A DNA stretch of 36,129 nt. Origin: an uncultured Endomicrobiia bacterium (GTDB lineage Bacteria; Elusimicrobiota; Endomicrobiia; DTEH01). The notes under the pieces are model-generated. The model searched no databases. It was not told the origin of the DNA and saw only the letters and a program-made list of their open reading frames with translations. Positions 1-1,614 of the stretch are shown in pieces; position 1 is the stretch's first letter; each line of letters begins with the position of its first letter. The translations under genes were made by a program, and so were the position numbers. The stretch lies in the NCBI GenBank assembly GCA_938074745.1, contig CALJEJ010000079.1:1-36129 (forward strand), given 5' to 3'.

Positions 1-676
1 TACCTAAAAGTAAAACACCTGTTGTACCGTCATTACCGGGAGCACTCCAGGTAAGATTAATTTCTCCCCCAAGCGAACCCGGAAGTGCAGAAAGGTTTGT
101 AACAGCAGCAGGCGGTGTGGATTCTTTAACAAAAGAAATGTTATCAAAATATCCAGTTGCATATCGTGTCAGATCGCCTTGGATAAAATCTATTCTTACT
201 CCTAAGTTAACCGTCATTTGAGTATATCCTGGGGTAACTGTGGTGGACATTTTTAGTTCATGCCAAGAAGAACTGCTTATACGAGTGATAGTTGCACGAC
301 TTACATCTGTCCAATTTGATTCACCATAACCCAAAGCAGAAGTCCCAAGATTAACTCCTAAACCTATCCATTGAATATAATCAGTGGTTTCTGAATTTAG
401 AACCCATCCTGAAAGTATATAAGTTGCATACGGTTCCACATTTACTACTTGATAAACTATTTTTGTGTCTGCTGTTGTACTACACGAAGATTGAGCAAGA
501 GCATAGCTACCTTCTTGAACTGGATTGGTGACAACTGTACGAAGAGCAGTTCTGAAAGTAGTCCAACCGGTTAAATTTCCTGTTTCAAAACCTGGGTTCT
601 GCAACAAATTACCAAAAGATACCGAAGTTGAAAAAAGAAGTACTATCCAAAAAATTATTCCAGTTTTTGTTTTCAT
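1..676 (-). CDS. Secreted protein with N-terminal signal peptide, carbohydrate-binding-like N-terminal module and start of a fibronectin type III-like domain; truncated at the left window edge
   Basis: ATG at 676 (minus) opens a frame that stays open to the window edge: MKTKTGIIFWIVLLFSTSVSFGNLLQNPGFETGNLTGWTTF...TPPAAVTNLSALPGSLGGEINLTWSAPGNDGTTG. The signal peptide, the 'LLQNPGFETG..W' motif and the FN3-like 'PPAAVTNLSA...INLTWSAPGNDG' are visible. Confidence 0.75.
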   Translation of the reverse strand, partial: MKTKTGIIFWIVLLFSTSVSFGNLLQNPGFETGNLTGWTTFRTALRTVVTNPVQEGSYALAQSSCSTTADTKIVYQVVNVEPYATYILSGWVLNSETTDYIQWIGLGVNLGTSALGYGESNWTDVSRATITRISSSSWHELKMSTTVTPGYTQMTVNLGVRIDFIQGDLTRYATGYFDNISFVKESTPPAAVTNLSALPGSLGGEINLTWSAPGNDGTTGVLLLG

Positions 677-1152
677 CTTTTTATTTTTTTCTTTTTTATT
701 TTTTCTTTTATCTCTTTCAAAATTTCTAAGTCAAGTTTATCTTGTGGCCTGTTTGTAGATTTTTTATTTTTTATGAGTTCGTTTAATCCAATAAAGTATG
801 TATTTGTATTACCATACTTTGCTTTAACTTTTTTCTTAAATACGGTCTTTAAATCTACACCATCCAGAGTAGTTATTATATGAATCATTACAGGAGCAAC
901 TCCAATCTGATAAAAATTCCCACTAACAGAAAAATATTCATCTTCAACTTTTGAAACATCTACGCCAAATTCAGCCATTGCTAATTTTGTCTTTCTACTG
1001 TTATCTAAATCTGGATAAACCAAAATATCCATATCGTCTGTATACCGTGGTTTACTGTGATACGAAACTGCAAACCCGCCAACTATACAGTATTTGACTC
1101 TATACTTATTCAAGCATTCTAAAAACTCTTCAAAATCTTTTTCTGTTCTCAT
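673..1152 (-). CDS. Nucleotidyltransferase-fold protein (DUF6036 / AbiEii-like family)
   Basis: 159 aa; VKYCIVGGFAVSYHSKPRYTDDMDILV matches the GG..(x)n..T.D.D nucleotidyltransferase signature. Confidence 0.65.
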   Translation of the reverse strand: MRTEKDFEEFLECLNKYRVKYCIVGGFAVSYHSKPRYTDDMDILVYPDLDNSRKTKLAMAEFGVDVSKVEDEYFSVSGNFYQIGVAPVMIHIITTLDGVDLKTVFKKKVKAKYGNTNTYFIGLNELIKNKKSTNRPQDKLDLEILKEIKEKIKKKKIKR

Positions 1153-1349
1153 TTTTTTCTAAAATTTCCTGCAACACAAATTTTTTTGTTCAACCTATGC
1201 GGTTTTATCCCTTTTATTTTATAGAACTGCTCTCTTAAATACTGAAGGATGTCAAGCCGTTGTTGTGGTGTCAAAGAGATAAAGTGTAGTGTAGAAAGGA
1301 TATTCATTTCTTTAAAAGAACGACATTTTAAAACATTTCTAATTTTCAT
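1149..1349 (-). CDS. Small hypothetical protein, putative partner of the downstream nucleotidyltransferase (TA-like pair)
   Basis: ORF called 1149..1412, but the likelier start is the internal Met at 1349 (MKIRNVLKCRSFKEMNILSTLHFISLTPQQRLDILQYLREQFYKIKG...). The stop overlaps the start of the next gene (ATGA). Confidence 0.5.
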   Translation of the reverse strand: MKIRNVLKCRSFKEMNILSTLHFISLTPQQRLDILQYLREQFYKIKGIKPHRLNKKICVAGNFRKK

Positions 1350-1391: not shown

Positions 1392-1464
1392 AAAAAAAAG
1401 GCCAGAGAACAATTTTTTAGAAACCCTACCGGGTTTATGGGTGAATTAGATTTGTTCTCTGGCC
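1392..1464 (-). terminator. Rho-independent terminator
   Basis: Minus strand GGCCAGAGAACAA (1452-1464) ... TTGTTCTCTGGCC (1400-1412), perfect 13-bp arms, followed by TTTTTTTT (1392-1399). The loop holds a second hairpin, AAACCC-GGTA-GGGTTT (1421-1436). Confidence 0.8.
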
Positions 1465-1580
1465 GAAACCACCTACGAACCAGAAAAAAAGAATTTCGTA
1501 TTGTTAGATAGGTCTTACCCGACCTCAGGGTACTTCTTTTTTCTAGTCCGTAGGTTTCATCCAATTCAATACTTTTCATT
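1392..1580 (-). ncRNA. Candidate structured small RNA or 5' attenuator/riboswitch-like leader
   Basis: Intergenic. Promoter-like boxes are followed by a ~25-bp imperfect long stem (1534-1558 with 1465-1493) capped by a 40-nt loop with interleaved complementary segments, then a 13-bp perfect terminator stem and T8. Confidence 0.6.
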
Positions 1581-1581
1581 A

Positions 1582-1614
1582 ATTATATATACCTTAAAAA
1601 ATACAATCTGTCAA
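1582..1614 (-). promoter_or_regulatory. Sigma70-like promoter for the structured RNA
   Basis: Minus strand: TTGACA (1609-1614), 17-nt spacer to TATATA (1586-1591); the overlapping TATAAT at 1582-1587 has a 21-nt spacer. Confidence 0.55.

Follow-up and report, generated by a model that had tools for sequence, protein, structure and literature searches.

Related RNA regulators

Among described regulatory RNAs, one of the closest to the one analysed here is the purine riboswitch (RF00167), whose transcription-ON platform follows pbuE-like logic. In the sister genome G003 the homologous leader contains the purine aptamer, and strands a and b of the RNA in the window (the whole 36,129-nt stretch of DNA that was analysed, contig C79 of a 1.52-Mb Endomicrobia genome) match the 3' strand of the G003 P1 helix and its competitor, with the same alternation of a-b, b-c and c-d pairings. 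Unlike a typical purine riboswitch, the window RNA shows no aptamer ahead of strand a and precedes a surface-protein operon, not genes of purine metabolism. In the HMP-PP (thiS motif) riboswitch, the aptamer is embedded in an intrinsic terminator, the loop of which is conserved to an unusual degree (PMC6478431). The window RNA is similar in its unusually conserved terminator loop, possible pseudoknot and consistent gene association, but it has no sequence match to the thiS motif, no thiamin genes are found downstream of the leader, and the leader is known from four genomes only.

Two c-di-GMP-I riboswitches (RF01051 on G000:C6 and RF03167 on G001:C1) have a similar promoter sequence and precede surface-protein operons in the same genomes, but they differ in fold and core, and the window RNA matches neither model. 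They are located at L003:1284-1385 (-) and L011:1591-1670 (+), respectively, ahead of corresponding operons that encode proteins with FlgD-like tails and PorV/PorQ-family proteins. Since these riboswitches, with their similar promoters, head other surface-protein operons, the proposed RNA control of the present operon would not be an isolated case in these genomes. The small GGTA-loop hairpin of the window, close to where a long operon begins, presumably resembles RfaH/ops or LoaP leader elements; unlike in those systems, the loop in G003 is AGGUC. A search of five genomes for a specialised NusG paralogue found none and a single NusG in each, and the RfaH/ops idea, which came from the CGGTAG loop, was rejected.

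A structured RNA in the window

Sequence inspection located promoter-like boxes, hairpin 1 (hp1) with a 40-nt loop, and a 13-bp terminator hairpin (hp2) with a nested 6-bp hairpin and a T8 tract exactly where the original prediction had placed them:

1582-1614, minus strand: sigma70-like promoter, by sequence (TTGACA 1614-1609, 17 nt, TATATA 1591-1586, overlapping TATAAT 1587-1582)
1534-1558, minus strand: strand a, the 25-nt 5' arm of hp1, containing CUACGGACUAG, by folding and comparison with G003
1494-1533, minus strand: 40-nt apical loop of hp1, with the small hairpin GGUC-GGGUAA-GACC (1524-1511) preceded by UACCC (1532-1528)
1465-1493, minus strand: strand b, the 3' arm of hp1, containing CUGGUUCGUAG, with strand c as its alternative partner
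1452-1464, minus strand: strand c, the 5' arm of terminator hairpin hp2, GGCCAGAGAACAA
1413-1451, minus strand: conserved loop of hp2, with ACCC (1442-1439) and the nested 6-bp hairpin AAACCC-GGUA-GGGUUU (1436-1421)
1392-1412, minus strand: strand d (1412-1400, UUGUUCUCUGGCC) and U8 tract (1399-1392), a predicted intrinsic terminator

The promoter was matched by eye and is absent from the list of a consensus scanner because its TATATA lacks the final T; the predicted transcript start is near 1575-1580 (about 1578). In all three homologues, a TTGACA or TTGTCA box and a TATA-like -10 box are likewise found 5' of hp2, 62-237 nt away. The arms of the terminator stem (1464-1452 and 1412-1400) form 13 perfect pairs. 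The motif in the apical loop of hp1 is of the same kind as that in the hp2 loop, and UACCC (1532-1528) can pair with the GGGUA in the loop of its small hairpin, giving a possible pseudoknot. In the window copy, strand b could alternatively pair with strand c to form a 10-bp antiterminator (UUUUUCUGGUU with GGCCAGAGAA).

Folding had been proposed as a check, and the leader proved far more stable than shuffled sequences: positions 1385-1580 of the minus strand fold at -63.7 kcal/mol versus -42.3 +/- 4.2 kcal/mol for shuffles (z = -5.06; none of 200 shuffles as good). The z values for the whole leader in the four copies are -5.1, -5.8, -5.9 and -5.5, with leader lengths ranging from ~120 to ~290 nt. 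An Rfam scan of the window yielded a single match, a tRNA elsewhere, and none on the leader; at a loose threshold (E<=10), no credible match was seen within 1150-1900. The window RNA thus matches neither 6S, SRP, tmRNA, RNase P nor any other Rfam family, which agrees with the original prediction, where it was not recognised as one of these four or as a known riboswitch class. The leader is overlapped by a 65-aa ORF (1382-1579), the G003 counterpart of which is an 81-aa ORF. As stop codons interrupt the frame in G001 and G004, though not in G003, a coding role was rejected and the ORF is incidental, as originally assumed. Leader-peptide attenuation was also rejected, there being no conserved short ORF and no room for one in G004.

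Homologues and conservation

The three close relatives of the window, as judged by pgi, are the Endomicrobia MAGs G004, G001 and G003. In these relatives pgi has other downstream neighbours and no such RNA next to it, so the RNA is not a feature of pgi. The first homologue (G001:C4, locus L029) was reached via the downstream nucleotidyltransferase gene: the insert DNA is 87% identical to that of the window, and upstream of it lie a promoter and two hairpins, of which the second is clearly a homologue of hp2. A model of this pair then matched G004:C161 and G003:C51. The homologue search that had been suggested thus gave covariance-model matches in three further genomes from the Endomicrobia family of the window (E values 1.8e-19, 1.1e-18 and 5.1e-18, with 7.6e-15 for the window itself). 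With the four-sequence model, the copies score 95.6, 92.8, 89.7 and 76.5 bits; each genome gives a single match, on the sense strand.

Across 341 genomes of the phylum, the covariance model found no convincing homologue outside the four genomes of this family, and the fifth family genome, G002, has no copy of the leader. BLASTN with the leader across the class returned promoter-like AT-rich or chance matches only, two of which (L003 and L011) are the c-di-GMP-I riboswitches with similar promoters. Weak model matches in other families (G049, G059, G020 and others) were treated as chance, and the only low-E match in the phylum outside the family, in G297, was dismissed as a REP-like palindrome between convergent genes. 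Such palindromes were seen near gene ends at L094:1501-1584 (-) in G297 (GGTGCCAGGCAC...GTGCCTGGCACC) and at L095:1501-1616 (-) in G049 (GGGGACAGACACCATTTTT...AAAATGGTGTCTGTCCCC). The exact core pattern was not found in viral contigs, and a search of a paper library for riboswitches in Endomicrobia returned no paper.

In the four-sequence alignment, the hp2 stem comprises 14 pairs, with 100% of cells paired where letters exist. It contains two compensatory changes (C-G to U-A in G004 and G-C to A-U in the window) and two one-sided changes. For the whole structure, 98.7% of cells are paired, versus 29-66% when the structure is slid along the alignment. A structured RNA tightly bracketed by promoter and terminator is supported by the homologues and by these compensatory changes. 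The G-U pairs originally described as compensatory-looking belong to hp1; the two real compensatory changes lie in the terminator stem. With four sequences the covariation is thin, and 25 of 500 shuffles reach an equal number of two-sided changes, so that it supports the hp2 stem rather than proving it. A U-tract follows the terminator stem in all four copies. The consensus of the hp2 loop core over the four genomes is ACCY-NN-AARCC-RGGUA-GGYUU; in the window, 6 pairs enclose a GGUA loop in the nested hairpin, as opposed to 5 pairs and GGGUA. The hp2 hairpin is 67-82% identical in aligned columns, whereas the adjoining spacer is hardly alignable; the terminator loop is thus conserved beyond what termination needs. 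The window, G001 and G003 all contain hp1, whereas G004 has the terminator hairpin only.

Gene context

Each of the four copies has its own promoter and lies upstream of, and co-directional with, a gene for a giant secreted surface protein of the Kelch/FnIII/carbohydrate-binding kind; a small insert lies between them in three. The upstream neighbours vary: pgi in the window, a uvrA-like gene, and DUF192 genes in two cases. Downstream of the leader, the window encodes:

1149-1349, minus strand: 66-aa small protein, the first gene after the leader, forming the insert together with the nucleotidyltransferase gene
673-1152, minus strand: 159-aa nucleotidyltransferase with a weak DUF6036 match (DUF6036/DUF2204-like), between the leader and the surface-protein gene and absent in G004
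2-676, minus strand: start of a secreted CBM4_9/FnIII-type surface protein, running off the contig

The CBM4_9/FnIII gene is the head of the operon that the window leader would control. The two insert genes had been described as a toxin-antitoxin-like pair, which was not established: they encode a small protein and a DUF6036/DUF2204-like nucleotidyltransferase and form an optional insert that G004 does without. In three genomes such pairs separate the leader from the surface-protein gene (window 673-1349; L029 1364-1798 and 1953-2414; L064 781-1399; L050 1-356); in G001, stops disrupt one of the copies, which is joined to a truncated signal-peptide ORF.

In G004, the leader is followed directly by genes for a 1346-aa FnIII protein, a PLD protein with weak similarity to NucT nuclease, a barrel-like protein whose tail is a helix-hairpin-helix of the ComEA type, and one unassigned protein. 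In G001 it is followed by the insert, a 1753-aa Kelch/FnIII protein, a PorP/SprF-like protein, PLD and additional genes of the barrel and helix-hairpin-helix kinds, and in G003 by another insert and then a Kelch/FnIII protein. The operon partners are conserved between G001 and G004; G002 has a PLD homologue in a different setting and no leader RNA. The operon with the secreted, weakly NucT-like PLD protein and the barrel-like protein with the ComEA-type tail was found at L122 6980-9977 (-) and L121 9414-14000 (+), and might encode a DNA-capture or uptake apparatus. At L121:7983-9323 (+), a 23S rRNA intervening-sequence (S23-type) protein and a PorP/SprF-like barrel are encoded together in a single ORF.

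A purine aptamer in a sister genome

The G003 leader holds a purine riboswitch aptamer that scores 54.8 bits against a gathering threshold of 37 in Rfam:

L064:1673-1779 (= G003:C51:3891-3997), minus strand: purine riboswitch, RF00167 match

It was the only Rfam match to the RNA in scans of the window and its three homologues at gathering and loose thresholds, and a scan of 96 Endomicrobia-class genomes (E<=0.01) found no other purine riboswitch. The aptamer heads a nucleotidyltransferase insert and a Kelch/FnIII surface-protein gene, not purine genes. In the alignment, J3/1 has a C at the ligand-reading position before the 3' strand of P1, as in guanine-type members, and a G where the consensus has A. 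The 3' strand of P1 is strand a of hp1, G003 CUACGGACCAG being matched by CUACGGACUAG in the window. When the G003 transcript is cut before strand d, its minimum-energy fold combines aptamer P1 with the b-c antiterminator, whereas the full transcript is predicted to fold into a-b and c-d. This modelled alternation is the wiring of a ligand-ON attenuator.

The window retains the strands of this P1-competing platform. Strands a and b match their G003 counterparts in register better than shuffled sequences do (P 0.006 and 0.003), and CUACG in the window agrees with the conserved end of this aptamer class. The aptamer itself (P1-P2-P3 with conserved J2/3 and J3/1), present in G003, is missing in the window: only ~20 nt lie between the expected start and strand a, and RF00167 was detected neither within 1150-1900 (E<=10) nor in G000 (E<=1). 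In contrast to G003, a window transcript that stops short of d is predicted to be 16.6 kcal/mol more stable with a-b than with b-c. In the absence of an aptamer, the predicted default of the window is therefore termination, and no switching would be expected without an outside factor. The b-c complementarity is not better than chance in the window (P about 0.15), versus 0.03-0.05 in G001 and 0.012 in G003.

Likeliest is that the ancestor possessed the aptamer and that it was lost in the window lineage. Its gain in G003 is a possible alternative, since the scan of the class gave no other purine riboswitch. The window copy would be either a locked or vestigial switch, acting as a strong roadblock, or one in which some factor reads the conserved hp2 loop, as suggested by the presence of hp2 alone in G004.

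Alternative explanations

The RNA is real and conserved, and it is probably a leader rather than a free-standing sRNA, a pgi terminator or a repeat. The original prediction had offered an sRNA or a premature-termination leader, and the second of these is supported by the co-directional surface-protein gene in all four genomes and by the G003 aptamer. A trans-acting sRNA gene lying upstream of the operon by chance would account for the bracketing of ~185 nt by promoter and terminator and for the terminated form as the predicted default in the window. It is nonetheless quite improbable: the RNA keeps to the same strand before the same kind of surface gene although the upstream neighbours differ, one homologue contains a riboswitch aptamer, and the leader varies in length more than twofold. 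That the hairpins are simply a strong intrinsic terminator, serving pgi or acting as a roadblock with a coincidentally large loop and no regulation, also appears unlikely. There is no other obvious pgi terminator before the promoter at 1614-1582, and hp2 is all that G004 keeps; against this, pgi and the hairpins are separated by the promoter, the RNA goes with the downstream operon while pgi in the relatives has other neighbours, and plain terminators have no need of the conserved loop. A DNA-level role as a REP-like palindrome or transposon end is brought to mind by the G297 match and is highly improbable: REP/REPIN elements have many dispersed copies, as opposed to the single copy in each of the four family genomes, and a search of phages and plasmids gave no match to the leader.

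A further reading, which overlaps the preferred one and adds the identity of the sensor, treats hp1 and hp2 as a tandem sensing motif (ACCY, a small hairpin with an RGGU loop and a possible pseudoknot) of a new terminator-embedded riboswitch or protein-binding class. The hp1 and hp2 cores align, and a model built on hp2 only scores 20.6 bits on window hp1 and 20.2 bits on G001 hp1, in register. However, G001 hp1 also scores 20.7 bits on the wrong strand, so part of this signal reflects the shared stem. The ACCY/RGGU complementarity beats shuffles over seven instances (P 0.0009) and includes one compensatory change from C-G to U-A, but these instances come from four related genomes and are not independent, and window hp2 has only 3 such pairs and G001 hp1 only 2. 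HMP-PP riboswitches provide a precedent for an aptamer inside a conserved-loop terminator (PMC6478431). We consider this reading possible and rather doubtful. Equally tentative is its full form, a family-restricted riboswitch class of tandem pseudoknotted hairpins with the hp2 loop consensus as core, the second within the terminator, which would sense a ligand to switch on a surface and DNA-handling operon and to which one lineage would have added a purine aptamer.

Probable transcription attenuation of a surface-protein operon

The RNA is probably the 5' leader of the surface-protein operon, acting by transcription attenuation of the riboswitch type, with the aptamer lost or replaced in the window. 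This explanation builds on the observed anatomy, homology and gene context and on the G003 aptamer. From these we infer a transcript that starts near 1578 and runs through strands a, b, c and d. In the OFF state, pairing of a with b would leave c free for d, forming the intrinsic terminator and yielding a ~185-nt RNA that ends at ~1392. In the ON state, withholding a from b would let b pair with c, so that no terminator forms and transcription reads through into the downstream genes. In G003, P1 of the purine aptamer, which contains strand a, would take up that strand and make a ligand-ON switch. The window copy shares these switching strands, has no recognisable aptamer, and would either be stuck terminating or be set by a reader of the terminator-loop motif. 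Several observations count against this explanation: the predicted lack of switching in the window copy, its chance-level b-c complementarity, the thin covariation, the absence of hp1 in G004, and the fact that the first gene after the window leader belongs to the nucleotidyltransferase insert and is not the surface gene.

If the attenuation explanation is true, sister genomes share one expression platform that is joined to a known aptamer in one case and not in another, and the gain or loss of a riboswitch sensor could be traced on a single leader. The only purine riboswitch seen in the class sits before a gene of the surface-protein type rather than before purine metabolism, and a giant surface protein, together with PLD, PorV/PorP-like and ComEA-like genes, would be under RNA-level control in these uncultured Endomicrobia.
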